In this document: positions 11,445-56,971 of the stretch, piece after piece
Layout of the letters: each line of letters opens with the position of its first letter
How positions within the stretch are numbered: position 1 is the first letter of the stretch
Source: a virus
DNA length: 64,000 nt
Reading direction: 5' to 3' (one strand)
Virus record (IMG/VR): IMGVR_UViG_3300048672_000970
Location: 62,001 to 126,000 of that record
Notes under the pieces: model-generated
The model's database searches: none
What the model was told of the DNA's origin: nothing
Seen by the model: only the letters and a program-made list of their open reading frames with translations
Position numbers and translations under genes: made by a program

Positions 11445-11529
11445 CCGCCATTGTCGAAACTAGAAAACGAAGTGGACTTAAAATCCACCGCCCTTGACGG
11501 GCTTGCAGGTGCAAATCCTGTATGGCGGA
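11445..11529 (+). tRNA. tRNA-Leu (anticodon TAA)
   Basis: Acceptor CCGCCAT/ATGGCGG, anticodon stem GTGGA/TCCAC with loop CTTAAAA, class II variable arm GCCC-TTGAC-GGGC and T arm GCAGG/CCTGT. The long variable arm and TAA anticodon fit leucine (codon UUA). CCA is not encoded. Confidence 0.8.
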
Positions 11530-11543
11530 CTATGCGCATATTT

Positions 11544-11618
11544 GCGGGTATAGTTTAGTTGGAAAAACTACTGCCTTCCAAGCAGAAGTCGCCGGTTCGA
11601 TTCCGGCTACCCGCTCCA
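11544..11618 (+). tRNA. tRNA-Gly (anticodon TCC)
   Basis: Acceptor GCGGGTA/TACCCGC, anticodon loop CTTCCAA, T arm GCCGG-TTCGATT-CCGGC, discriminator T and encoded CCA. Reads GGA codons. Confidence 0.85.
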
Positions 11619-11621
11619 AAT

Positions 11622-11709
11622 GGGAACGTATACCTCTAAGGAGAAGGCCCGGACTGTAAATCCGGTGTCCGAAAGGACTCGCTGTGATCGTTACACAGAG
11701 TTCCCACCA
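11622..11709 (+). tRNA. tRNA-Tyr (anticodon GTA)
   Basis: Acceptor starting GGGAAC and ending GTTCCC, anticodon stem CCGGA/TCCGG with loop CTGTAAA, class II variable arm (GTCC-GAAA-GGAC) as in bacterial tRNA-Tyr, discriminator A and encoded CCA. Confidence 0.85.
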
Positions 11710-11716
11710 GAACAAC

Positions 11717-11791
11717 GCGTCTATCATACAATGGATAGTATAACGGTCTTCTAATCCGTAAATTTAGGTTCAATTCCTAATAGACGCCCCA
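11717..11791 (+). tRNA. tRNA-Arg (anticodon TCT), copy 1
   Basis: Acceptor GCGTCTA/TAGACGC, D arm ATAC/GTAT with A at position 20 (a known arginine identity base), anticodon loop CTTCTAA, T arm TTAGG/CCTAA. The discriminator reads C before CCA, which is unusual. Reads AGA codons. Confidence 0.75.
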
Positions 11792-11798
11792 GAACAAA

Positions 11799-11874
11799 TG
11801 GGGTATAATTCAATTGGTTAGAATAGAAAACTTCTAATTTTCCTATCAGGGTTCGATTCCCTGTGCCCCAACCA
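11799..11874 (+). tRNA. tRNA with anticodon TCT, copy 2, different body
   Basis: Acceptor TGGGGTA/TGCCCCA beginning with U1-A72 as in many glutamine tRNAs, D arm ATTC/GAAT without A20, anticodon stem GAAAA/TTTTC with loop CTTCTAA, T arm CAGGG/CCCTG, discriminator A and encoded CCA. The anticodon predicts Arg, but the body differs from copy 1, so charging identity is open. Confidence 0.7.
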
Positions 11875-11880
11875 AATAAA

Positions 11881-11906
11881 AAGAGACTCCAACGAGTCTC
11901 TTTTTC
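11881..11906 (+). terminator. rho-independent terminator after the tRNA cluster
   Basis: AGAGACTC-CAAC-GAGTCTCT followed by TTTTTC. Confidence 0.85.
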
Positions 11907-12018
11907 ATTCCAACATCATGCGTTTCATAACGGCCGTAAAAACTGTGCTCACGATGGTGCTTAAACTTTGTTTTTGCCAGAACTGGTAATGTCGGTCAAA
12001 ACCAGTTTAACCATCCGT

Positions 12019-12024
12019 TAAATA
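12019..12024 (+). promoter_or_regulatory. late promoter (TAAATA)
   Basis: GTTAAATAC resembles the T4 late promoter TATAAATA. It begins 24 nt before the ATG of the next gene, the same spacing as at five other such sites, with no Shine-Dalgarno sequence between. Confidence 0.6.
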
Positions 12025-12042
12025 CCTAAAACCAATACTCCT

Positions 12043-12663
12043 ATGCTTCTCAAACAACTTCTTTCTGAAATGCCAGTAGCTATTAACACCGAATTGGTCG
12101 ATTCTGGTGATGAACCTTTTACGGTCTTTTTCATGTCTGATGACACTATGAAACGCCGTGGATATAGAGAGATAGGTAAAAAGGGTAAAGTTCATATCAT
12201 GCTCAGTAAAAACAATCAAATCTGCGTGGCTGGATTTGAAGATATTCGGCATGATGGAACTTCTGGTTTCAAGGTTTTAGGGATGTTAGAGTTCAAAATG
12301 CAGCTCAATCTGGGCATCGACCTGCATACACAAGGGCAAATGGTGCAGGTGGAACTGGTTGAGGTATCTGACCAATTCAAAGAGCTTGGATTGGGCAGTT
12401 TCATGTATCATCGGGTGGTGCAGTCTGGCTTGACGTTGGTTTCAGACAATCAACAATATCTTGGCGGACAATCACTCTGGCGAAAGATTGCGAAAGCGCA
12501 TATGGCTGATGAAGTGGTCTATGTCATGCAGAAAGGGAAGTTACTCTCTGATAGTGATGGACAACCTATCGAGTATGATGGCAAGAACATTCCGGATTCG
12601 AGTATTTGGAGTGAAGATGCTACTCACAAGCACACCTTGCTGATTTACACAAAACGGGGGTGA
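12043..12663 (+). CDS. GNAT-like acetyltransferase with capsid-targeting-like N-terminus
   Basis: 206 residues. Residues 1-9 (MLLKQLLSE) end in L-S-E, matching the (L/I)-x-E cut site of T4-type prohead proteases. VEVSDQFKELGLGSFMY near residue 106 resembles the acetyl-CoA loop (Q/R-x2-G-x-G/A) of GNAT enzymes, and the following LVSDNQQYLGGQSLWRKI is typical of a GNAT tail. It sits alone behind a late promoter. The acetyl target is unknown. Proposed: head-packaged acetyltransferase. Confidence 0.65.
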   Translation: MLLKQLLSEMPVAINTELVDSGDEPFTVFFMSDDTMKRRGYREIGKKGKVHIMLSKNNQICVAGFEDIRHDGTSGFKVLGMLEFKMQLNLGIDLHTQGQMVQVELVEVSDQFKELGLGSFMYHRVVQSGLTLVSDNQQYLGGQSLWRKIAKAHMADEVVYVMQKGKLLSDSDGQPIEYDGKNIPDSSIWSEDATHKHTLLIYTKRG

Positions 12664-12770
12664 TGGATGTTGGGTATGCTAAAGAAGGGGTGTTTGAACT
12701 TACTGCGCCGGAGCTGAAAAAGATGCAACAAATGCTTGAAGCGCGTTTCAGAATCCATTACAATCGATGA
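12663..12770 (+). CDS. short peptide (35 aa)
   Basis: The start overlaps the stop of the GNAT-like gene (TGATG) and the end overlaps a possible start of the next gene. The sequence MDVGYAKEGVFELTAPELKK is well formed for a small helical protein. Coding is likely but not certain. Confidence 0.4.
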   Translation: MDVGYAKEGVFELTAPELKKMQQMLEARFRIHYNR

Positions 12771-12796
12771 ATCGAAACCAACTGGAGAAAAATTTC

Positions 12797-13489
12797 ATGG
12801 CTGACCAGCAACCGCCGAAACCGGCACGAAATGAAATTGATGAAGAAGAACGTTCGGCACTTAAGCAATGGTCTGAAAATACTCTACTTCTTTCACGCGC
12901 TGAAGCTGATGTCTTCATGAAGGAGAACGCTGAACACATTTATTATAAGTACGGCCTCGGAATGGAAATCATTCAGCGATGTGATACACGCGAACAGTTT
13001 ATTAGTTTCATGCTACGCTCTGCCGTACATTATGACCCGCACAGTTGGATGAACGGTACGCCATATTTTGTGAACGCTGGGGAAAAGCGGAATCTGTGGC
13101 TGTCGACGGAAGCTATTGAACGTATCGTCAAGGAGCATCCAGAGCAATGCTTGGTGGATTCGTGTACGTTTGACTCTGAAGAATTGGATAACGTTTTTGG
13201 GTTTGAAGAATACCGAGTGATGCCTTACAAGGTAGCATCTGAACCGCAATACCTGTTTGATTTCAATAGATTCTATTGGGATGAGCGTGGCGACCGGCGT
13301 TTTCATTTTCAAAAAGTTGAAATGCCTGTTTATGACATCGCCGATTTTGAAGTGGCGGCGGATTTGGAATTTCCGTTAATGGTCAGTTTGATTTCGCATG
13401 ACACGTTTGACCGCTGTGGGTCGATTACGGGGTGCCAAGTGACCATTTACCCGGTAGACCTTGAACCTGGGATTATTCGGGTGGTGTAA
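12797..13489 (+). CDS. hypothetical protein
   Basis: 230 residues from the ATG behind TGGAG; an in-frame ATG 30 bases upstream overlaps the previous stop. The N-terminus is acidic and helical (NEIDEEERSALKQWSENTLL), then alpha/beta. The C-terminal ITGCQVTIYPVDLEPGIIRV resembles a closing strand seen in other genes of this region. Function unknown. Confidence 0.65.
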   Translation: MADQQPPKPARNEIDEEERSALKQWSENTLLLSRAEADVFMKENAEHIYYKYGLGMEIIQRCDTREQFISFMLRSAVHYDPHSWMNGTPYFVNAGEKRNLWLSTEAIERIVKEHPEQCLVDSCTFDSEELDNVFGFEEYRVMPYKVASEPQYLFDFNRFYWDERGDRRFHFQKVEMPVYDIADFEVAADLEFPLMVSLISHDTFDRCGSITGCQVTIYPVDLEPGIIRVV

Positions 13490-13505
13490 TAAAGTGTAAC
13501 GAGGC

Positions 13506-13534
13506 TTGACCGTTGTGAAAACCATTGGTATCAT
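13506..13534 (+). promoter_or_regulatory. early promoter (TTGACC-17-TATCAT)
   Basis: Preceded by AAAGTGTAACGAGG. A weak dyad (ATTGGT / ACCAT) surrounds the -10. Confidence 0.75.
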
Positions 13535-13564
13535 TAACCATCTAATCCCAAACAGGAGCAACCT

Positions 13565-13837
13565 ATCAACTATTTCGCCATCCGCCACAAACCTAGCAGT
13601 TTGTTCCTCACGCCCCGCTCATCTAAAACCGTTGCAACCGATGTTAAAAACATCCTTGACGGTGCAACGTTCACGCTTGGGCAAGGGAGTGAGTTAGCGG
13701 TCAAATTTTCCACAAAGCCGCTGGCCGAAGCGGCGCTAAAGTTCAACTACCCTAGCGAAATTTATTACGTCTGGGTGGGTACAGTGTGTCACATCGTTTC
13801 TGCTGAAACGCTTGAAATCATTGAATTGGAGTGGTAA
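13565..13837 (+). CDS. hypothetical protein with probable ATC start codon
   Basis: 90 residues if translation starts at ATC six bases after AGGAG. The resulting N-terminus (M/I)NYFAIRHKPSSLFL matches the paralogues at 4910 (MKFFAIQH...LFL) and 13840 (MKYYVLQL). The first standard-type start in frame, a TTG 12 codons downstream, would remove this conserved strand and has no ribosome site. Either AUC is used as a rare start or the ATG is mutated. Function unknown. Confidence 0.6.
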   Translation: MNYFAIRHKPSSLFLTPRSSKTVATDVKNILDGATFTLGQGSELAVKFSTKPLAEAALKFNYPSEIYYVWVGTVCHIVSAETLEIIELEW

Positions 13838-13839
13838 CC

Positions 13840-14136
13840 ATGAAATACTATGTTCTGCAACTTCTTGGAGACAATGTGTTCCTGTCGCCGTGGAACACCG
13901 GCGTTGATCAAGCCTATAACACATCAAGAGATTTGTCCGCAGTATGTAGCGATACGCTCGTTAGCGCCCTTTCCGAAGCACTTCAATTTGCCTCGTTGTC
14001 AGACATCATTTTGGCATTCTATCGATGCGAGAGCATCAACATCTTTTGCCCATTCACCAAAAGGTTCAGATATGTCACCCTGGAAGACTTTGAAGTGATT
14101 GAAGTCTCTGTTAAAATGAAGACTGTTGAAATCTAA
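13840..14136 (+). CDS. hypothetical protein of the M-K-Y-Y-V-L family
   Basis: 98 residues starting MKYYVLQLLGDNVFLSP and ending in strands EDFEVIEVSVKM, like the gene at 8037. It starts two bases after the preceding paralogue, suggesting tandem duplication. Function unknown. Confidence 0.65.
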   Translation: MKYYVLQLLGDNVFLSPWNTGVDQAYNTSRDLSAVCSDTLVSALSEALQFASLSDIILAFYRCESINIFCPFTKRFRYVTLEDFEVIEVSVKMKTVEI

Positions 14137-14142
14137 CATCGG

Positions 14143-14171
14143 TTGCAAAACATTGCAGCCGGTGTTAGAAT
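14143..14171 (+). promoter_or_regulatory. promoter of the CAT tRNA (TTGCAA-17-TAGAAT)
   Basis: Ten bases upstream of the tRNA. AACATCGG and CCGGTGTT pair over 8 positions with one G-T around the spacer, again a dyad promoter. Confidence 0.65.
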
Positions 14172-14180
14172 AAAGTTTTA

Positions 14181-14255
14181 GGGCCGGTAGCTCAATGGCA
14201 GAGCAGCGAACTCATAATTCGACGGTCAATGGTTCAATTCCATTCCGGCCTACCA
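14181..14255 (+). tRNA. tRNA-Met or tRNA-Ile2 (anticodon CAT)
   Basis: Acceptor GGGCCGG/CCGGCCT with a G-T end pair, D arm GCTC/GAGC, anticodon loop CTCATAA, T arm AATGG/CCATT, discriminator A and encoded CCA. It lacks obvious initiator features. Sequence alone cannot separate elongator Met from lysidine-modified Ile (AUA). Confidence 0.8.
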
Positions 14256-29699: not shown

Positions 29700-30749
29700 A
29701 TGAAAATGAAAAAAGTAAAAGTAGTTATTGGCCGTTTTAGTGGCCTACACAATGGGCACATCAATCTACTGAATGTTGCTGCATCCGATGCTGACCTTGT
29801 GATCGTTGTTATTGGGAGTAGTTTCATCGCCCCGAATCCAAAAAATCCGTTTTCTTTTAGTGACCGGCGATACATGCTCCAAGAAGCAGTTGAAGCGATG
29901 CCATCAATGAATAACGTCGGTCTGCGAGTGGTTGGCGTTCGTGATTATGCTAACAACTCAAAGTGGATTGCCGAAACGGAACGAGTCGTCCATGAAGCCA
30001 TCACCGAATTTATGCCCGGTGAAAATCATGAAATCACACTGGTTGGATATGAGAAGGATGAAACTTCTTCTTATGTACACATGTTCAAGTGGAAGAAATA
30101 TCTGCTGTCCGACGCTGTCAATTTCAATAACCGGGTACTGTCTGCTACCGATATTCGTGAAGCACTGTTTAACGGGCAGCTAGAAAGTATCAAAGAGGGT
30201 GTGCCGGAAAGTACCTATCGGTTTCTATCCCGATATGCACAATCTGATGCGTTCAATTTGATGCGAGCTGAAAAGCAGTATTATACGGATTACCAAGCAG
30301 CGGCATCGGTGGCACCTTATCCTATCATTTACCAAACGTCTGATGCGGTGGTTGTCCAATCTGGACACATTCTACTAATCGAACGTAAGCACATTCCGGG
30401 CCAAGGACTTCTCGCGCTCCCTGGTGGATTCCTGCACACGAATGAACTGCGGATTGACGGGATGGTTCGTGAACTGCGGGAAGAAACTAGGATGAAAGTT
30501 CCCGAACCCGTTATTCGGCGGTCGGTGGTTAAATCTGAAGAATTTGAAGATCCGAATCGAAGCCTTCGGGGCCGTGTCATCACGAAAGCTTTTCTGGTAC
30601 AATTGGACGATACAAAAGACCTGCCGGCCGTCAAGGCGGCAGATGATGCAAAGAAGGCGTTTTGGTTCCCTTTGAGCCGCATTGATGAAATTCAGGACAG
30701 GTTCTTTGAAGACCATTACGACATTATCAAAACGTTGACTGGAGTCTAA
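29700..30749 (+). CDS. nadM: bifunctional NMN adenylyltransferase / Nudix hydrolase (NadM-Nudix)
   Basis: 349 residues. The N-terminal domain has GRFSGLHNGH (the nucleotidyltransferase G-x-F-x3-H-x-GH motif) and VLSATDIRE (the S/T-x-x-R motif) and would make NAD from NMN and ATP. The C-terminal domain carries a Nudix box near residue 245 (GGFLHTNELRIDGMV then RELREETRM), with Arg-Met where Gly-hydrophobic is usual. The same fusion is known from bacteria and T4-like phages. With the NAMPT gene nearby it forms a two-step nicotinamide-to-NAD route. ATG follows AAGGAGTCAAGA. Confidence 0.88.
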   Translation: MKMKKVKVVIGRFSGLHNGHINLLNVAASDADLVIVVIGSSFIAPNPKNPFSFSDRRYMLQEAVEAMPSMNNVGLRVVGVRDYANNSKWIAETERVVHEAITEFMPGENHEITLVGYEKDETSSYVHMFKWKKYLLSDAVNFNNRVLSATDIREALFNGQLESIKEGVPESTYRFLSRYAQSDAFNLMRAEKQYYTDYQAAASVAPYPIIYQTSDAVVVQSGHILLIERKHIPGQGLLALPGGFLHTNELRIDGMVRELREETRMKVPEPVIRRSVVKSEEFEDPNRSLRGRVITKAFLVQLDDTKDLPAVKAADDAKKAFWFPLSRIDEIQDRFFEDHYDIIKTLTGV

Positions 30750-31045: not shown

Positions 31046-32455
31046 ATGAATGCAAATAATCCCGCCCTCCGTTTCATGAACACGAATCTCATCCTGGCCG
31101 CTGACTCGTATAAGACGAGCCAGTATCCGATTTTCCCGGATAGCCAAGAAGGGCTGTATGTGTACATTGAGGCGCGGAGTAAGGGTGATATCATTGTTCC
31201 AGCCGGCATTAAGGCCATGCTTGAACGGTATCTCAGTACGCCAATCACTCAGGAAATGATTGATGAAGCCGAACAGTTCATCACCGGGCATGGCGAGCCG
31301 TTTAACCGTGAAGGATGGGAATACATCCTGAATCAATATGGCGGTTGGCTTCCGTTCACGATTCGAGCTATTCCGGAAGGCATGCCGGTTCCGTCGAGCA
31401 TTCCGCTGTTCACGGTTGAATGCTCTGACAAGAAGGCTAAATTCGCTGCGACGTATATTGAAACATGGTGTCAGCGAGGTGTGTGGTATCCTACTACCAT
31501 TGCTTCGCAAGGCTATGAAGCGAAAAAGGAAATCAAGCGGTATTACGAAATTTCTGGCGCAGAAATGAGTGATCTGGCGTTTGGTCTTCTAGATTTTGCT
31601 GGCCGCGGTTTTACTTGTGGCGAACAGGCGCAACTTGGCACGATGGCGCACATGTACAATTGGCTCGGCACTGATACGATGGAAGGTGTTCTGTTCACTA
31701 ACAACCTGTACGGCTGTGAAATGGCAGGATTTTCTGTCCCAGCGTCCGAACACAATAATCAAATTTCGTTTGGGGAAGAAAACGAATATGAATATGTGAA
31801 AAAGATGCTGGACACGTATGCCAAGCCTGGAAAGGTCGTTAGCATTGTCATTGATGGATATAATGCACACCAGTGTGTTGACATGCTGTGTGAACAGTTT
31901 GGCGATTTCATCAAAACGAGTGGTGCTTTGGTTTGTGCACGTCATGATTCCGGCCTCGCCGAAGAACAGATTAGCTGGCTGCTGAATCGACTGGCTAAGA
32001 CGTTCGGTTATACCATTAACGCGAAGGGGTACAAAAAGCTCAATTGCGTGAAGGTGCTGTGGGGTGATGGCATCAATCAAATGACCATTCGGAGCCTGTA
32101 CGGTTTCGTTGTGGCTAACGGATGGGCTGCAAATAACATCACTCTCGGTTCTGGTGGTGGTCTGATGCAATCGTGCACCCGTGACACTTACAAGTTTGCC
32201 ATGAAGGGTTCTGCCCAACTGGTGAATGGTGTTTGGAAGGGTATGTCGAAGCGGCCGATTACTGACCCTGGCAAGCGCAGCAAGGAAGGTCGTGTTGCGG
32301 CTTGCCAGATGGCGGATGGAAGTTATGGTTGGTATGACCTTGATATTGGTCTGCCGGAAGGTGCTTCTGATATCATGGAAACCATCTATGATTGCGGAAA
32401 GCGGTTTGAAATGGCAAATCTGGATACCATCCGTGCTCGCACGGGACTGTGGTGA
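31046..32455 (+). CDS. nadV: nicotinamide phosphoribosyltransferase (NAMPT)
   Basis: 469 residues, full length. Visible family motifs: DSYKTSQYP near the start, FGLLDFAGRGF (F-G-x-R-G region), SVPASEHN with the catalytic His, ARHDSG (usually RPDSG), WGDGIN and LGSGGGLMQ. It joins nicotinamide and PRPP to give NMN, which the NadM-Nudix protein turns into NAD. ATG follows AAAGGAG. A terminator follows it. Confidence 0.93.
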   Translation: MNANNPALRFMNTNLILAADSYKTSQYPIFPDSQEGLYVYIEARSKGDIIVPAGIKAMLERYLSTPITQEMIDEAEQFITGHGEPFNREGWEYILNQYGGWLPFTIRAIPEGMPVPSSIPLFTVECSDKKAKFAATYIETWCQRGVWYPTTIASQGYEAKKEIKRYYEISGAEMSDLAFGLLDFAGRGFTCGEQAQLGTMAHMYNWLGTDTMEGVLFTNNLYGCEMAGFSVPASEHNNQISFGEENEYEYVKKMLDTYAKPGKVVSIVIDGYNAHQCVDMLCEQFGDFIKTSGALVCARHDSGLAEEQISWLLNRLAKTFGYTINAKGYKKLNCVKVLWGDGINQMTIRSLYGFVVANGWAANNITLGSGGGLMQSCTRDTYKFAMKGSAQLVNGVWKGMSKRPITDPGKRSKEGRVAACQMADGSYGWYDLDIGLPEGASDIMETIYDCGKRFEMANLDTIRARTGLW

Positions 32456-47775: not shown

Positions 47776-48300
47776 ATGCGGGAAATGATTTTAGCTATTG
47801 ATAGAAGTAACGCGATTGGCTATCATGATGGCAGATTGGCATGGCGAATCAAAGCGGACATGCAACATTTCAAACAGAACACGATGGGTAAAACAGTCGT
47901 CATGGGGCACAAGACATTTGTAAGTCTTTGTAACAAGACTGGACTTCCGGGTCGAACTAACGTAGTATTGAGTTCAAGAAATCGAGAAGAACTTCAGCTA
48001 GACCAGGCGGTTGAGTTGATTCATTCGATACGAGACATTCCTGAAAATTGCGTTATCATTGGCGGCGCTTCGTTATACGACCAAGTGCTAGATGCGAAAA
48101 TAATAGATGTAATAAATGTAACATTGATAGGAGAGTCATCGAATGCTGATGTAAAATTGACCCATCAACTAGGAACACTAGATGTGTTCCTCAAAAGTCA
48201 GGCAGAATCTGGCGTTCAATGGCAAGTGACCAATTCCGAATCAGTCAAGATGACTGATTCTCATCCAAGTTTTAAGTTTGTTAATCTTAGGCGTATTTGA
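47776..48300 (+). CDS. dihydrofolate reductase
   Basis: 174 residues. MILAIDRSNAIGYHDGRLAW, KTVVMGHKTFVSL, LPGRTNVVLSSR and VIIGGASLYDQ match DHFR motifs for folate and NADPH. An acidic residue in RIKADM sits where the catalytic Asp is expected. It makes tetrahydrofolate for thymidylate synthesis, alongside the dCMP deaminase. The true start may be the second ATG, nine bases in. Confidence 0.88.
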   Translation: MREMILAIDRSNAIGYHDGRLAWRIKADMQHFKQNTMGKTVVMGHKTFVSLCNKTGLPGRTNVVLSSRNREELQLDQAVELIHSIRDIPENCVIIGGASLYDQVLDAKIIDVINVTLIGESSNADVKLTHQLGTLDVFLKSQAESGVQWQVTNSESVKMTDSHPSFKFVNLRRI

Positions 48301-48348: not shown

Positions 48349-50304
48349 ATGAGTCTCCCCATGAGTATTACCGCCCTGGCCGCCCGCGTTGCGGAAAAGT
48401 ATGAAACCGTTGCGCTGTCTGTCGAGCAATGGTACGAACAAGCGGCTTCCGCGCCGGATATGTATGCTGGGGTTCATGCCCGGCTCCTGAAGGCAATTGG
48501 TGATCCAATCATCATTGACACGAAGGCAGACGCGCGGCTAAGTCGCATTTTCTCGGGTCGCAAGATCCGGGTTTATGAGCCGTTCAAGGATTTCTTCGGC
48601 ATCGAAGAAACGATTGATGAAATTATCAGCAAGCTGCGCGCTGGCGCGCAAAATCAAGAACCGGCTCGCCAAGTTCTTGACCTTGTTGGCCCGGTTGGTT
48701 CGGCAAAGTCTTCACTGGCTCGCCGTCTCGTCAGCCTAATTGAAAAGGAACCAATCTGGGTGGTAGCTACCGCGAAGGGTGACGTTAGCCCCGTTAATGA
48801 CAATCCGCTGGCGTTCCTGCGACTGCTAGGCGATGCTGAATCACTGTGCAAGGATTTTAACATTCCTGTCTCGGTCATGTCAAAGGTTTTCCCGTCGCCG
48901 TGGCTTGTTCAGCAATTCAAGGATGCTAAGTCTGACCTGACCAAGTTCCAAATTCGCAAGGTTTATCCGAGCGTGCTGGAGTCGATTGCAGTTGCTCGCA
49001 TCGAACCGGGTGATGAAAACAATCAGGATATTTCCACGATTGTTGGTAAGACTGACCTTCGCTCGCTGGAAAAGTATCCTCAAGAGCACCCGTATTCGTA
49101 CAGCTATTCGGGCGGTCTGTGCCGCGCCAACCGGGGCGTCGCTGAATTTGTCGAAATCTTCAAGGCACCGACGAAGGCTCTGCATCCCATTCTGACCGCA
49201 ACTCAGGAGTACATTTATAACGGCACTGAAAACATTGGCGCCCTTCCTTTCGATGGCCTGATTATCGCCCACCACAATTCGAGTGAATGGGACGAATTCC
49301 GCACCAATCCGAAGAATGAAGCATTCCTCGACCGACTGTGTGTTGTTCAAGTACCGTACACGCTTCGTCACGCTGAAGAAGCCGCCATCTACAAGAAGAT
49401 GATTGACCAGAGCACCACGCCAAATGTGCCGATTGCTCCGGGTACGATTGAAATGCTGGCAAAGTGGAGTGTTCTTTCTCGCCTGTCGGCTCCGGCTAAT
49501 TCGTCCATCATTGCCAAGCTGCATGTCTATAACGGCGAAAACGTCAAGGATCGTATGCCGACTGCCAAGCCGATTGGCGAATACCGAGACGCCGCCGGCC
49601 TGCATGAAGGTATGACGGGGATGTCTACCCGGTTCGCGTTCAAGGTGCTGGCAGATACGTTTGACCTTCGTCCGGAAGAAATGCAAGCGAATCCGGTTGA
49701 CCTGATGTTTGTCCTGCAAGAAGCCATTAAGAAGGATTCAACGCTGGCTGACGCTCGACGGGAAGAACTGCTCAACTTCATTGAAAGCCACCTGAAAGTT
49801 GAGTATTTCGAGCTGCTGGATAAGCAACTGCGCGAAGCGTACATGGAAAGTTTTGGCGCCTATGGGCAAAATATGTTCGACCGATACGTCAGTCTGGCCG
49901 CCGCGTGGATTGATGCTGAAGTCATTCGAGATCCTGAGACTCACATGACTCTCGACCGACAAGCCATTAACGGCAAGCTTGAAGAAATTGAAAGGCCAGC
50001 CGGTGTTATGAATGTTAGTGATTTCCGCCATAACATCGTGACCTATGTGCTCCGGTATCAGGCGCGTAATGCCGGTGCGTCACCGCGTTGGCAGGATTAT
50101 GAGAAGATCAAGACGGTCATTGAAAAGAAGCTGTTCACCGGCACGCAAAACATTCTGCCGGTCATTTCGTTCGGCACGAAGCAAGATTCTGAAATTGAAT
50201 CGAAGCATCATGCATTCGTTGACCGAATGATTGCAATGGGGTACACCAAGCACCAGATTGAAATTCTGGTTGCATGGTGGAGTGCCAATACAAAGGCAGC
50301 CTAA
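48349..50304 (+). CDS. prkA: PrkA-type serine protein kinase (YeaG-like)
   Basis: 651 residues, the usual length of PrkA/YeaG. SRIFSGRKIRVYEPFKDFFG, Walker A GPVGSAKSSLARRL, the NRGVAEFVEIFKAP block and SSEWDEFRTNPKNEAFLDR are family features of the AAA-plus kinase. In E. coli YeaG acts with YeaH in starvation and stress responses. YeaH and SpoVR homologues follow here, so the whole bacterial set is present. ATG behind AAAGGAAACCC. Ends at a terminator. Confidence 0.92.
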   Translation: MSLPMSITALAARVAEKYETVALSVEQWYEQAASAPDMYAGVHARLLKAIGDPIIIDTKADARLSRIFSGRKIRVYEPFKDFFGIEETIDEIISKLRAGAQNQEPARQVLDLVGPVGSAKSSLARRLVSLIEKEPIWVVATAKGDVSPVNDNPLAFLRLLGDAESLCKDFNIPVSVMSKVFPSPWLVQQFKDAKSDLTKFQIRKVYPSVLESIAVARIEPGDENNQDISTIVGKTDLRSLEKYPQEHPYSYSYSGGLCRANRGVAEFVEIFKAPTKALHPILTATQEYIYNGTENIGALPFDGLIIAHHNSSEWDEFRTNPKNEAFLDRLCVVQVPYTLRHAEEAAIYKKMIDQSTTPNVPIAPGTIEMLAKWSVLSRLSAPANSSIIAKLHVYNGENVKDRMPTAKPIGEYRDAAGLHEGMTGMSTRFAFKVLADTFDLRPEEMQANPVDLMFVLQEAIKKDSTLADARREELLNFIESHLKVEYFELLDKQLREAYMESFGAYGQNMFDRYVSLAAAWIDAEVIRDPETHMTLDRQAINGKLEEIERPAGVMNVSDFRHNIVTYVLRYQARNAGASPRWQDYEKIKTVIEKKLFTGTQNILPVISFGTKQDSEIESKHHAFVDRMIAMGYTKHQIEILVAWWSANTKAA

Positions 50305-50307
50305 ATC

Positions 50308-50330
50308 AAAGGGGCTTCAGCCCCTTTTTC
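50308..50330 (+). terminator. rho-independent terminator
   Basis: AAAGGGGC-TTCA-GCCCCTTTTTC between prkA and the dadA-like gene. Confidence 0.85.
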
Positions 50331-50345
50331 TTTACAGGAAAAGTT

Positions 50346-51695
50346 ATGAATAAAATGTCTGCATATGTCATCGGAGCCGGCGTGATTGGCATTAACACCG
50401 CTCACCGACTCGCTGCCGATGGTTTTAACGTTACTGTTTTCGATTCGGAACATGATGTCGCCCTTGACACTTCTTATAGAAATGGCGGCCAGCTTTCTGT
50501 CGGCCATTGTGTTCCGTGGAGTAATCCATCTGCGCCTGCTAAAGTCCTTAAGTGGCTCTTTCAAAAAGATGCACCCCTCCTTTTCACGCCACGTTTTTCT
50601 GTTAAGCAACTGAAATGGATTGCCAATTTCTTCCGGCAATGTACTCGGTCTAATACCGATTTCAATACCGAATCCCTTATCAATCTTGGCATGCTGTCAC
50701 GAGATGCGATGCAAAATCTTCAAGCGGCATATCCTGAAGTTCTAGCTAATGAAAAATTTAGCAAACTGGACAACGGTATTATCCATTTCTATCGCAATGA
50801 AAAAGAATACAATGATGCGGTTAGGGATGTTATCTTCATGAATGGATGTGACCTTGAACGAAAACTGATTTCCAGAGAGAAAGTTTTTGAACTTGAGCCT
50901 AGTTTGCAAATGAATGAAAACATTATCGGCGGCACATATACTCCTGGTGATGCGTCGTGCGATGTCCATCAGTTCACAAAAGCTATTGCATCCATTACCG
51001 AGTTTCCAAATTCCGGTGGGTCAATCAGATATAAACTCCGGCATTACGTTCGTGAGCTGGTCTGTGATGAAGATAGTGGTCGAATTGTTTCTTTAACCGT
51101 GTATGACGAAGACAACGATGGTATCGTTCATTTTGCCGATAATCCGGATGTCGTTGTAGTTGCAGCGGCCAATTCGACATATGATTTGGTTAAGCCGTTA
51201 GGTATCAATCTGACCATGTATCCGGCCAAGGGGTATTCAGCTACTATCAAACTTCACCCTGATGAACTTGATAAAGCCCCTTACGTCAGTTTGACCGATG
51301 ATGAAAACAAACTAGTGTTTTCTCGTCTAGGCGATACTTTGCGAGTTGCGGGCACAGCCCATCTGACAGACGAGCCGACATGGATGTTGGACATGGTTCG
51401 GTGCAATTCTCTGATTGAAAAAACTAGAAGCATCTTTGACATTCGAGCCGATGAGTATGAATTCTGGTCGGGTGCTAGACCGCTAACACCTAGTAACAGA
51501 CCTTACATCTGTTCAACTGACTATGAAAATCTGTTTCTGAACACCGGGCATGGGTCACTTGGCCTTACAATGTCAGCAGGTTCAGCAGAATTACTTTCTT
51601 ACATTATTGCCAATAGCCTTTACGGCGTAAGTATGCTACAGTGTGATGAAATGGATGCTATGGTGAAAGCTTTCTCCCTGGACATCGCCCATTGA
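50346..51695 (+). CDS. D-amino acid dehydrogenase-like FAD oxidoreductase (DadA-like)
   Basis: 449 residues. VIGAGVIGINTAHRLAADG is the FAD Rossmann motif (GxGxxG); ALDTSYRNGGQLSVGHCVPW matches the DadA ALETSFANAG(Q)...PW block; GAMP-type ends appear as FWSGARPLTPSNRPYI and NTGHGSLGLTMSAGSAELL. It would oxidise D-amino acids such as D-alanine to keto acids, passing electrons to the respiratory chain. It is not part of the bacterial PrkA-YeaH-SpoVR set and is an unusual gene for a phage. Confidence 0.85.
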   Translation: MNKMSAYVIGAGVIGINTAHRLAADGFNVTVFDSEHDVALDTSYRNGGQLSVGHCVPWSNPSAPAKVLKWLFQKDAPLLFTPRFSVKQLKWIANFFRQCTRSNTDFNTESLINLGMLSRDAMQNLQAAYPEVLANEKFSKLDNGIIHFYRNEKEYNDAVRDVIFMNGCDLERKLISREKVFELEPSLQMNENIIGGTYTPGDASCDVHQFTKAIASITEFPNSGGSIRYKLRHYVRELVCDEDSGRIVSLTVYDEDNDGIVHFADNPDVVVVAAANSTYDLVKPLGINLTMYPAKGYSATIKLHPDELDKAPYVSLTDDENKLVFSRLGDTLRVAGTAHLTDEPTWMLDMVRCNSLIEKTRSIFDIRADEYEFWSGARPLTPSNRPYICSTDYENLFLNTGHGSLGLTMSAGSAELLSYIIANSLYGVSMLQCDEMDAMVKAFSLDIAH

Positions 51696-51701
51696 ACCGA
51701 C

Positions 51702-51722
51702 GACCCGCTTCGCGGGTCTATT
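51702..51722 (+). terminator. possible terminator
   Basis: GACCCGC-TTC-GCGGGTC followed by TATTA, a weak T run, so partial read-through into yeaH is likely. Confidence 0.55.
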
Positions 51723-51739
51723 ACACGAAAGGAATTGAA

Positions 51740-53056
51740 ATGAGTGTGCAACCTTCGCAACCTTCGCTAATTTTCATCGACCGAACCAAGACTGGTCGCG
51801 GTAGTTCGGCCGCCAATCGAGACAAGTATCTGAAGCGCATTAAGGCATCAGTAAAGGCTGCGCGAAATATTGCCCTCGGCGGGCTGACATCTGACACGAA
51901 GCAAACGGTCAATCCGATCACCGTCGCCCGGCAAAAGCTTAATGAACCGTCTTTCCATTATGACCATTCAACGGGCGTCATTACGAACGTTTTGATTGGC
52001 AACCAAATTTTTGAACGAGGTGATGAAATTCCCATGAAGAATTCGTCGGAAGGGCAAGGGGACGGTTCGGGAAATGGTGCTGGCAATGGTGGCAATGGCG
52101 AAGATGATTTCATCGTGCATGTCACGAAAGATGAATTTCTCAATATCTTCTTTGAAGATTGTGAGCTGCCGAACATGCAGCATAACTCAAAGAAGCAATT
52201 GAAGCTGCCAACCTTCCACAAAGCCGGGTATCGAACGTCCGGCAGTCCGGCCACTCTGTCTGTTATCAAGAGCTTCAAAAACTCTCTCGGACGCAGAATT
52301 GCCATCAAGGGGTCTTTCCAGTCGCGGATTGATGAACTGACCGAACAAGATAACGTCCTTGCCGAACTGATTCAAAGCCAGGATATTGAACTTGAACGAG
52401 CTTGTATCAAGGAAGAAATTACTGAACTGACTTCCCGAAAAGGCAAAGTCATGTTTTTTGACGACATGGATTTGCGGTATCGGAAAATGGAGCAAGAGAC
52501 GAAACGAACGGCTGATGCTATTTTCGTGATGATCATGGACGTTTCCGGGTCGATGGATCAGGAACGCAAAACGATGGCACGCAAGTTTTTCAGTCTGCAA
52601 TACGCTTTCCTGAAGCGACATTATCCTGACACTCAACTGGTCTTCATTGCTCATACTGAAACTGCTGAAGAAATGGATGAGGATGAATTTTTCTCCACTC
52701 GCATTTCTGGTGGCACGGTCGTTTCCCCTGCATACGAACTGGCTCTGGAAATCATTCAGGAACGATTTGATGCAAATGTTTCAAATATCTACTTGTCACA
52801 AGCGAGTGATGGTGATAACATGGAGTCTGACAATGCGAATCTAATTCCGGCTCTGGAACAGTCGGGACTTCTGAGCAAGATTCGGCACATGAGTTACATT
52901 CAAACGTGCCCGAAATCTCAATGGCATTATTCGCATGGGATGTGGGACGTACTGCAAAGTATCGCCCACACCCATCCGGAAAAGTTTGGTATGCAGCAAA
53001 TCACATCTGATGCAGAAGTGTTCGACGCATTCAAGGCAATTTATCACAAGCAATGA
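51740..53056 (+). CDS. yeaH: YeaH/YhbH-type protein (DUF444) with VWA-like domain
   Basis: 438 residues. A disordered Gly/Asn stretch (SEGQGDGSGNGAGNGGNGED) is followed by the DUF444 body. MDVSGSM (MIDAS DxSxS), GGTVVSP and SDGDNM are metal-ion-dependent adhesion site motifs of a von Willebrand A fold. In bacteria YeaH is the partner of PrkA. ATG behind GAAAGGAATTGAA. Confidence 0.9.
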   Translation: MSVQPSQPSLIFIDRTKTGRGSSAANRDKYLKRIKASVKAARNIALGGLTSDTKQTVNPITVARQKLNEPSFHYDHSTGVITNVLIGNQIFERGDEIPMKNSSEGQGDGSGNGAGNGGNGEDDFIVHVTKDEFLNIFFEDCELPNMQHNSKKQLKLPTFHKAGYRTSGSPATLSVIKSFKNSLGRRIAIKGSFQSRIDELTEQDNVLAELIQSQDIELERACIKEEITELTSRKGKVMFFDDMDLRYRKMEQETKRTADAIFVMIMDVSGSMDQERKTMARKFFSLQYAFLKRHYPDTQLVFIAHTETAEEMDEDEFFSTRISGGTVVSPAYELALEIIQERFDANVSNIYLSQASDGDNMESDNANLIPALEQSGLLSKIRHMSYIQTCPKSQWHYSHGMWDVLQSIAHTHPEKFGMQQITSDAEVFDAFKAIYHKQ

Positions 53057-53067
53057 AAGGATTGATG

Positions 53068-54576
53068 ATGGAGCAAATTACTAGCAAGACCGTCTGGTCT
53101 GAACAGCTCATTCGAGCTGTTTGGGAAGAAATTAAAATCGTTGCAGAAGAAGAACTGGAAATTAGTTTTCCGGAGCATCTGTACCCATTTCAAATCGAGA
53201 TGATTACGGCTGATTCAATGATTAATGCCTATGCGAGTATTGGCATGCCCATCATGTACTCACACTGGAGTTTTGGTAAGGAATATATGCGCAATAAGCA
53301 CGCATATGACAACGGGCAGTCGGGGCTAGCTCTAGAGCTGATCACAAACGATTCCCCGTGTTCCACAATGCTGATGGAAGATAACGCCATGTACCAACAG
53401 GCGATGGTCATTGCGCATTGTGTCGGTCATAACAGCTTTTTCAAGTGCAATGATTATTTCGTCCAATGGACTAACGCCGGTTCCATCATTGATTACCTAG
53501 CGTTTGCCAAGCGGTACATCACGCAATGTGAACTGCGGTACGGTGAAGAAGAAGTTGAACGGGTACTTGATGCCGCGCATTCTCTAGCTCAACATGGTGT
53601 TGACAAGCATCCCCGCAAGTCGGCCCGAAAGATGACTGAATCTCAGTACCTGCAAATGCTTGTTGAAAAAGAAGAACGTGAGATGCAGGAATCGGACTAT
53701 ATCCTGAACCGGACGAAGCTGAAATCATCTGACAAGGATGAACCGAGTCCAGATTGGATGGATGAAACTTATGACCCGCTCGTCGGGGAAGAAAACCTGC
53801 TTTATTACATCATGAAGCGGGCGCCCAACATGCCGACCTGGAAACGTGAAATTCTGCGTATCGTCTGGAAGATTAACCAATATTTCTATATTCAGGGGCA
53901 GACGAAGATTAGCAATGAAGGGTGGGCCAGTTTCTGCCACTATTTCATCATGACTCGACTTGAAGAAAAGGGCGTTATTAGCAGTGATGCGTTCCTCGCT
54001 TTCCTGCGCGACCATTCGGGTGTTATTTTCCAACCGACGTTTGACAAGCAGTATTATTCCGGCGTGAATCCTTACGCAGTGGGTTTTGCCATCTATCAAG
54101 ACATCAAGCGGATTTGCGAAAATCCAACTAATGAAGATAAGAAATTTATGCCGCATCTCATTGGGCAGAAATGGCAAGATGCTGTTACGCGGGCCGCTTT
54201 TGAATATCGTGATGACAGTTTCATCATGCAATTCATGTCTCCGAAAGTGGCGCGGGATTTGGCGCTGTTTTCAGTAGAAATTAGTACCAAGCAAAATGTC
54301 CTTGGGCAGAAAAAGCAAACTGCTCTGGTAACGGACGTCGCCGATTTGGACGGGTTTCGCAACCTGCGCAATATGATGGCTGAGAATACTCAACGGATTG
54401 AGCACGTGCCTGAAATCAGGGTTAGTGGTGCTGATTTTGAGGGCGATCGAACGCTGGTGCTGCACTATCATCCGTACAAAAATCGAGAACTGGACGTTGA
54501 AGATACGCAAGCAGTCATTTCGTACATTGATGAACTGTGGGGATATCCGGTTGAACTTTACACGGTGACGGGTTAA
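53068..54576 (+). CDS. spoVR: SpoVR/YcgB family protein
   Basis: 502 residues. YPFQIEMITADSMINAYASI then GMPIMYSHWSFGK matches the SpoVR N-terminal signature; AHCVGHNSFFK and YNPYAVGF-like VNPYAVGFAIY are further family blocks. The molecular role is unknown, but it is almost always linked to prkA and yeaH. An ATG 15 bases upstream overlaps the yeaH stop and could also serve. Confidence 0.9.
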   Translation: MEQITSKTVWSEQLIRAVWEEIKIVAEEELEISFPEHLYPFQIEMITADSMINAYASIGMPIMYSHWSFGKEYMRNKHAYDNGQSGLALELITNDSPCSTMLMEDNAMYQQAMVIAHCVGHNSFFKCNDYFVQWTNAGSIIDYLAFAKRYITQCELRYGEEEVERVLDAAHSLAQHGVDKHPRKSARKMTESQYLQMLVEKEEREMQESDYILNRTKLKSSDKDEPSPDWMDETYDPLVGEENLLYYIMKRAPNMPTWKREILRIVWKINQYFYIQGQTKISNEGWASFCHYFIMTRLEEKGVISSDAFLAFLRDHSGVIFQPTFDKQYYSGVNPYAVGFAIYQDIKRICENPTNEDKKFMPHLIGQKWQDAVTRAAFEYRDDSFIMQFMSPKVARDLALFSVEISTKQNVLGQKKQTALVTDVADLDGFRNLRNMMAENTQRIEHVPEIRVSGADFEGDRTLVLHYHPYKNRELDVEDTQAVISYIDELWGYPVELYTVTG

Positions 54577-56107: not shown

Positions 56108-56971
56108 ATGTCATTCAAGCAATTTCTATTCGAGGGCGGAAAAGCTACTGCCAAATTTCATACTAAGCGGGCGACAAAACCAGATATTGAGGCAGCAATC
56201 GAGTTTGTTTCTTCGACGTTAGGTATTGACAAGCAATCTATCATTGATAATTTGGTTGGCTCAACGGTGTTAACTTATAACGGAGATAGGGAAGATTCCG
56301 GCGACATTGATATCGTCTTTGAGTCTGAGCATAAAGATGAGTATGTCAAAAAGATGTCTGAAGCCACTAACGAACCCTGTGTTATCGCTAACGTCACTTA
56401 CTCATTCCCTGTACCAGTTTCAGATACCAAAATGGTTCAAGTGGATTTTACTTTCTCTGACAATATCGAATGGGCAAAATTTTCTTATCACGCGGACAAG
56501 AACTCGAAATACAAATCTGGCGTAAGGAACGAGTTTTTACATTCAGTCGTCAAATACACGCCGAAAGATGGGGAAGATTTGAAGGTCAAGGATGAGAATG
56601 GCAACCTTATCGTGAAAGCTGCCAGAAGTTTCAGGCTTGATAAAGGATTTGAGCGAGTGTTCAAAATTGCACCTGAGAGAAAAGATGGGAAAGGACGTGT
56701 CAAATCCATGCAATCAGTGGAACCGGATGCCATTGATGCCGAGCTGAAAAAACTAGACAAAGAAGGGTCTTACAGTAAAGACGCCGATTTGATTACAGAC
56801 CCGGATAAATTTGCGAGTATGCTTTTTGGCGAAGGTGTTAAAGCAAAAGACATCATGACGGCAGAGCAAGTTATTGCGTTGATTAAAAAACGCCCGGATG
56901 CTGTCAAAGTATTCGCTGATGCTAAAAAAGGATTGGAGAAACGGAAACTAGAAATTCCGGAAGGGATATAA
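56108..56971 (+). CDS. nucleotidyltransferase with capsid-targeting-like N-terminus
   Basis: 287 residues. MSFKQFLFE ends in L-F-E. GSTVLTYNGDREDSGDIDIV has the G-S-x9+-D-x-D pattern of the polymerase-beta type nucleotidyltransferase fold, and MVQVDFTF supplies the third Asp. NTases of this kind modify tRNA, proteins or small molecules, including in toxin-antitoxin systems. Starts one base after the GNAT stop. Target unknown; proposed packaged effector. Confidence 0.72.
   Translation: MSFKQFLFEGGKATAKFHTKRATKPDIEAAIEFVSSTLGIDKQSIIDNLVGSTVLTYNGDREDSGDIDIVFESEHKDEYVKKMSEATNEPCVIANVTYSFPVPVSDTKMVQVDFTFSDNIEWAKFSYHADKNSKYKSGVRNEFLHSVVKYTPKDGEDLKVKDENGNLIVKAARSFRLDKGFERVFKIAPERKDGKGRVKSMQSVEPDAIDAELKKLDKEGSYSKDADLITDPDKFASMLFGEGVKAKDIMTAEQVIALIKKRPDAVKVFADAKKGLEKRKLEIPEGI

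Follow-up and report, generated by a model that had tools for sequence, protein, structure and literature searches.

Bases 62001–126000 of the IMG/VR virus record IMGVR_UViG_3300048672_000970 form the 64,000-nucleotide stretch analyzed here (the window). The record comprises 200,363 bases of a T4-related large phage. The window contains genes for PrkA, YeaH and SpoVR, with a gene for a DadA-like enzyme between prkA and yeaH. The original prediction had described the three genes as complete and full length, interrupted by this enzyme, and this description holds: the coordinates are exact, and the Pfam cut-offs are passed with a margin. The features of the locus and its surroundings are as follows.

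48349–50304, plus strand: prkA, PrkA/YeaG-type AAA+ protein of 651 amino acids, ATG at 48349, with Pfam and NCBIfam matches
50308–50327, plus strand: terminator-like hairpin with T-run 3′ of prkA, −13.4 kcal/mol for the stretch
50346–51695, plus strand: DadA-like flavin adenine dinucleotide (FAD) oxidoreductase (Pfam DAO) of 449 amino acids, ATG at 50346, between prkA and yeaH
about 51702–51718, plus strand: GC hairpin without T-run in the gap between dadA and yeaH
51740–53056, plus strand: yeaH, a DUF444 protein with von Willebrand factor A (VWA) domain and metal-ion-dependent adhesion site (MIDAS), 438 amino acids, ATG at 51740
53053–54576, plus strand: spoVR, 507 amino acids, with HxxxH (122–126) and NEGWA (288–292)
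47776–48300, plus strand: dihydrofolate reductase (DHFR), the upstream neighbor, near prkA in most related loci too
56108–56971, plus strand: open reading frame (ORF) without Pfam match, downstream of the module in some related loci too

The window's PrkA scores 408 bits against Pfam AAA_PrkA and 188 bits against the PrkA C-terminal family (cut-off 25), both over the cut-off. It is also the only one of the four proteins to exceed its NCBIfam cut-off (NF011999, 805 bits vs 576). YeaH matches DUF444 with 384 bits (cut-off 27), SpoVR matches the families SpoVR with 399 bits (cut-off 27) and SpoVR_C with 60 bits (cut-off 27.6), and the DadA-like protein matches DAO with 154 bits. Since these three stay below their NCBIfam cut-offs (YeaH narrowly, with 377 bits vs 396 for NF003707; SpoVR with 541 vs 679 for NF008737; the DadA-like protein with 345 vs 383 for NF001933, DadA), we treat them as clear but diverged relatives, and call the last one DadA-like, of the DAO family, only. 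A search by sequence for solved relatives retrieved PDB 9xip and two further entries for PrkA, and none for YeaH or SpoVR.

The catalytic and MIDAS motifs had been described as kept. This is correct for YeaH, in which the MIDAS residues D267, S269, S271, T326 and D357 (DxSxS, T, D) are invariant across 13 aligned sequences (window plus 12 relatives). In PrkA the P-loop lysine (K120) is invariant in the alignment, but the last glycine of the motif, just before this lysine, is replaced by alanine (GPVGSAKS, residues 114–121). Among 94 non-identical PrkA rows, 20 carry GPVG[STA][AS]KS rather than GPVGGGKS, and every one of them is viral. In a set that includes repeats of some contigs, alanine or serine precedes the lysine in 32 of 160 viral rows vs 0 of 22 others. 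These residues are normal at this position in MCM, MoxR and RavA proteins. We rejected the altered P-loop as sole sign of an inactive PrkA because the same change recurs in those 20 rows.

The DadA-like gene had also been described as flanked by its own terminators. A good terminator does lie between it and prkA, but the hairpin that follows it lacks a T-run. As a class, terminator-like sites are not in excess in the window (14 vs 11.4 in shuffles). The terminator 3′ of prkA suggests that prkA and yeaH–spoVR are probably not one unbroken transcription unit in the window. The start of spoVR overlaps the stop of yeaH by four bases (ATGA). The DadA-like gene, which has its own ribosome-binding site (AGGAAAAG) ahead of ATG 50346, would be a separate passenger behind the terminator.

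The three-gene set without dadA is common in large viruses, and its presence in this record is not unusual. PrkA occurs in 16 of 50,697 records of known phages; 11 of these are Thermus phages, and four are uncultured phages of 595–642 kb. Scanned with the single protein, viral contigs yielded 143 relatives, of which 80 were kept; these are accompanied by yeaH in 79 cases, by spoVR in 72 and by dadA in none. An alignment scan of viral contigs found 253 relatives, of which 80 were again kept. The 157 loci read reduce to 112 that are distinct at prkA: 97 contain all three genes, 11 prkA and yeaH, and 4 prkA alone, though several loci run into the contig end. Wherever it could be mapped, the set has one order (prkA–yeaH–spoVR) and lies on one strand. 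We examined 45 records, namely 44 of the 80 picked for length plus the window's own. A terminase large subunit (TerL) over cut-off in 21 of them and a T4-type capsid in 13 argue for the viral status of these contigs. Only one of the 45, the window's own, contains a DAO-family gene.

The loci nearest to the window (L286–L303 and a few others, hereafter the kin) encode PrkA proteins that are 50–55% identical to that of the window, YeaH proteins that are mostly 39–48% identical and SpoVR proteins that are 45–57% identical. Their gene order is DHFR–prkA–yeaH–spoVR, and the window's DHFR, NUDIX and HNH ORFs, ORF 56108 and tail-fiber pieces recur around the set. TerL was detected in 5 of 22 kin records, which are all five of those longer than 300 kb. 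A tree built from 58 PrkA rows places the window in a virus-only clade of 10 viral rows (SH-like approximate likelihood ratio support 99), and the other viral and bacterial PrkA sequences are intermixed. An earlier tree, rooted with Thermus sequences and lacking the nearest kin, had placed the window beside the outgroup; we discounted this placement as a long-branch effect. A virus-only clade amid a mixed tree shows that the set has been viral for long and has crossed more than once between viruses and bacteria.

Of 108 loci, 65 have no more than 60 bases between the prkA stop and the extrapolated yeaH start, and 12 have over 600; the window has 1,435. Other kin junctions hold other inserts: a GIY-YIG-like ORF in L309 (E 0.0004, slightly short of the Pfam cut-off), a DUF7487 ORF in L298, where yeaH is in two parts with a 181-codon ORF between them, a weakly matched DUF6036/AbiEii-like ORF in L301, and elsewhere small unassigned ORFs or next to nothing. 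Locus L298 (9957–15334) has a second DUF7487 ORF before spoVR; both of these and the 181-codon ORF are probably mobile elements in the module. The varied contents of the junction indicate that genes come and go there and that dadA is one guest. From these gene orders we read dadA as a passenger at a variable site rather than as part of the set.

The suggestion that dadA is a linked part of the module is thus unsupported: none of the 112 distinct viral prkA loci retrieved contains it, and the kin junctions hold other inserts. The same absence argues against the idea that the four genes work as one unit, in which PrkA phosphorylates host proteins and DadA oxidizes d-alanine for respiration or wall loosening. 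In favor of such a unit, all four genes are intact on one strand, with K432 of PrkA and the DAO-family motifs kept; the terminator between prkA and dadA does not fit it, nor does the finding, in a 2026 study, that purified Bacillus anthracis PrkA has no kinase activity and negligible protease activity (PMC13001217). We regard this explanation as highly improbable. In view of that study the predicted phosphorylation of host targets stands on weak ground, though the exchange K426A is reported to abolish the effect of YeaG overexpression in E. coli (PMC10954441).

The gene-order comparison also bears on whether dadA is a random recent insertion. It is absent at this site from all relatives seen, which agrees with an insertion; "recent" is unsupported because its codon usage matches that of the window at large (rank 8 of 54) and its identity to any sequence found is at most about 43% (for bacterial proteins, 41% among the matches listed, 43% by alignment). 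With this ceiling, no recent bacterial donor was found. The GxGxxG, PxKGYS and NTGHG motifs are invariant or nearly so in comparison with seven bacterial DadA sequences.

DadA-like genes occur in other viruses. A tblastn search of the 50,697 phage records matched only four records named Acinetobacter phage MD-2021a. The stretches read of CAKLQF020000006 and CAKLQH020000009, both of that name, contain ordinary bacterial chromosomal genes, fumC, argF and dadX among them. Single-protein scans of viral contigs with SpoVR or DadA found none, which reflects a limit of the single-protein method. Scanning the viral contigs with an alignment nevertheless turned up 136 relatives, and we rejected the idea that DadA is unique to this phage. 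Eighty of the 136 were analyzed further, and TerL was found in 13 of 40 records that carry such genes. When the tree includes the 80 best relatives from bacteria, the 80 viral proteins form one clade (support 100) and the window's protein lies outside it, on the bacterial side. A tree of 19 of the 80 viral rows with 34 from bacteria and 5 as outgroup retains the clade (100); there the window's protein is sister of the viral clade (support 86), though the program warned about the long branch on which it lies. The position of the window's DadA in the tree thus varies with the method.

Members of the viral clade lie beside genes with Pfam matches to ribonucleotide reductase subunits (nrdA/nrdB), PTPS (QueD-like), GTP cyclohydrolase I, serine hydroxymethyltransferase (SHMT) and class II aldolase; a presumed QueE beside them has no Pfam match. 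The clade is not in PHROGs, in that each of four members scanned gave short weak matches or none. The window's gene could replace this virus-specific enzyme, whose neighbors suggest a part in the metabolism of nucleotides, pterins or one-carbon units, its position at the junction then being incidental. In line with such a replacement, a clade member occurs elsewhere in the record in 2 of 22 kin records, one of the 40 clade records (G070) contains a clear PrkA (a second exceeds the cut-off only together with its neighbors), and the junction gene is the only DAO-family copy in the window's record. In contrast, the window's protein lies outside the viral clade on a long branch with unstable placement, and 20 of the 22 kin records have no full-length DAO of the clade type, though most of them are fragments. 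We consider a replacement unlikely, if by no means far-fetched. Large phages of this sort have thus acquired a DadA-like enzyme on more than one occasion or from a deep split, which hints at a useful activity. Most likely, the gene would supply an FAD-dependent amino-acid dehydrogenase activity that other large phages would draw from the virus-specific lineage. An FAD enzyme of DNA hypermodification is another conceivable identity.

The predicted structure of SpoVR offers a possible clue to the function of the module. All 58 SpoVR sequences compared share H122, H126, E289 and G290. One helix carries the HxxxH motif and a later helix NEG(W)A, and both motifs are invariant or nearly so. We take these positions to correspond to the places of the zinc ligands in M1 enzymes. 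The complete HExxH motif is absent: HxxxH is kept, and the position of the glutamate is occupied by alanine, or by cysteine in the window. Because this glutamate is replaced, SpoVR was not filed as a member of the gluzincins (M1, M61 and their kin). Two models, one of full-length SpoVR and one of the domain alone (predicted local distance difference test scores 85.9 and 84.7), were compared with solved structures by Foldseek and VIA. With the full-length model, VIA placed M1-type zinc peptidases and relatives on top (Z 12.0 over 195 residues with a root-mean-square deviation of 3.5; next Z 10.3 and 10.2), and one list holds M1, M32, angiotensin-converting-enzyme-type and dipeptidyl peptidase III structures. 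The domain alone gave a best Z of 7.1 (147 residues, deviation 4.0); M1 or M61 enzymes fill its top ten places (Z 7.1–5.6), followed by an unrelated chain with 5.4 over 73 residues. Families missing from these lists carry no evidential weight.

Foldseek returned nothing significant for either model (best E 0.39 and 1.5). Profile comparison by hhalign likewise gave no support, with probabilities of 0.2 and 0.1 per cent against M1 (20 sequences) and M32 (4, two of six loci having been removed by a motif filter). We rejected SpoVR as a peptidase by sequence because this comparison was empty. These null results, the missing glutamate and the fact that helical models can reach such VIA Z scores by chance leave room for the view that the likeness is a mere common helical arrangement, with the trio acting as a chaperone or remodeler without a peptidase-like part. 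We judge this a realistic explanation, if not the favored one, as several peptidase families head both VIA lists and conservation at HxxxH and NEGxA is so strong. The chance that the modeled likeness to zincins is real appears a little better than even. SpoVR would then probably be a zincin-like helical protein that kept two histidines and one glutamate of the zinc site and lost the catalytic glutamate.

How may the three proteins work in infection? Synteny and trees show that large phages have long retained host-derived prkA–yeaH–spoVR as a single block, usually behind DHFR. PrkA would most likely be an AAA+ ATPase partnered with the MIDAS protein YeaH, for which the MoxR and RavA ATPases with their VWA partners provide a model. 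During infection the set probably acts as YeaG and YeaH do in starved E. coli: it would brake host metabolism or curb competing responses, which may allow a slow infection in poorly growing cells. YeaG and YeaH are reported to form jointly a metabolic brake in E. coli under nitrogen starvation, from which mutants recover sooner (PMC10954441). The argument of the original prediction that the set is in use is supported, in that the module is real, complete and apparently used, and this brake links it to starvation or quiescence in E. coli. YeaG is described to work via repression of mqsRA and dinJ–yafQ and via rpoS (PMC4664914). A change in yeaG swept one T7-resistant E. coli population, among other changes and hence as a weak pointer (PMC10044975). 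Taken together, we consider it fairly probable that prkA–yeaH–spoVR is a host-derived stress module kept by the phage as a metabolic brake in infection, with dadA as a separate passenger.

Several observations weigh against this reading, besides the empty Foldseek and hhalign searches. Those IMG/VR records that lack TerL may be of cellular origin or represent fragments. Terminase relatives of this phage (PA5oct/Paride, XacN1, Atu_ph07) have no PrkA match, which indicates that the module is dispensable for phages of such kind in general. PrkA itself has changed fast: kin PrkA proteins share a mean mutual identity of 75% and the window's shares 52% with them, and where 95% or more of 118 PrkA rows agree in a column, the window has 23 changes, the kin 0–7. 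The corresponding kin–kin and window–kin means are 63 and 52% for SpoVR, 42 and 37% for DHFR, and 52 and 44% for YeaH, where one misaligned row lowers both means.

This acceleration could reflect relaxed constraint. PrkA might be heading for loss since dadA split the operon, as its acceleration exceeds that of YeaH and SpoVR and its codon usage is atypical (rank 48 of 54 in the window). We find this improbable: all 651 codons are open, the P-loop lysine, FVE.FK, FLDR and K432 (which corresponds to YeaG K426 and is lysine in 118 of 118 rows) are kept, and YeaH and SpoVR are conserved almost as in the kin. Fast change with key residues kept would fit a changed partner or target equally well. A bolder extension of the brake hypothesis, which we hold to be rather doubtful, is a three-part machine of AAA+ ATPase, metal-dependent adaptor and zincin-like (pseudo)peptidase, carried by large phages as a portable dormancy switch, whose retooled PrkA (altered P-loop, fast divergence) may act apart from or against the host copy.

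One of the closest known systems is E. coli YeaG–YeaH (and YcgB), which shares the PrkA and DUF444 families and the lysine K426; the order prkA–yeaH is common to the window and an Enterobacter LAU1 record. The phage differs in that its PrkA has an altered P-loop and an identity of about 50%, spoVR adjoins and overlaps yeaH, and dadA is inserted between the first two genes. The Thermus phages MN1, phiLo and Lalka and three uncultured phages of 634–642 kb contain PrkA, VWA and SpoVR-like families as does the window, and none of them gave a dadA match. In contrast to the window, MN1 has the order VWA–SpoVR–PrkA with identities of 21–33%; PrkA of the 634–642 kb phages is about 45% identical. Bacterial DadA belongs to the same fold family (31–41% identity, KGYS and NTGHG motifs); it lies beside a racemase in the loci compared, whereas the window's enzyme lies between prkA and yeaH and scores below the NCBIfam cut-off.

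Single members of the set are already known from phages. The Ralstonia jumbo phage RsoM2USA encodes PrkA (ORF30) and SpoVR (ORF28) two ORFs apart on one strand; unlike here, its authors, in the part of the 2021 report considered, filed the two apart without discussing a module, and the comparison is by description only (PMC8504454). In viromes of the eastern tropical North Pacific (ETNP) oxygen minimum zone spoVR is abundant and is read as influencing the physiological state of the host; in contrast to our reading it was taken as a sporulation gene, and the paper does not contain the term prkA (PMC8940887). New are the dadA insertion and the hint at the SpoVR fold. In searches that left subscription papers largely outside, no paper treated the trio as a phage module, described a phage DadA or read SpoVR as a zincin.

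The window also encodes a phage-type clamp loader, a DNA ligase and a tail fiber. It has no nucleotide matches to known phages, and no late promoter TATAAATA occurs in it. The TerL of the window's record passes only weakly (24.7 bits vs cut-off 22), and the record has no match to the T4-type capsid family. Its terminase, encoded outside the window, is nearest (32–39%) to those of a Nitratidesulfovibrio phage and of the large phages PA5oct/Paride, Atu_ph07 and XacN1; the gene (record positions 177544–179436) is split by an intein-like insert. Within the window, an NMN adenylyltransferase/Nudix-like gene (29700–30749) and a nicotinate/nicotinamide phosphoribosyltransferase-like gene (31046–32455) are a likely NAD salvage pair, and five tRNA genes (Leu, Gly, two Arg(tct), Met) lie at 11445–14255.

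The DadA-like enzymes of the separate, unlisted viral clade, encoded next to nucleotide genes, constitute an independent lead. Bacterial PrkA, YeaH and SpoVR are conserved proteins whose mechanism is debated, and the claim of kinase activity is itself disputed. That large phages keep the trio together makes a shared task likely and provides natural variation for probing it, and the zincin-like reading of SpoVR points to three residues, H122, H126 and E289. Should the set act as a metabolic brake, it would matter directly for the way in which phages multiply in starved hosts.

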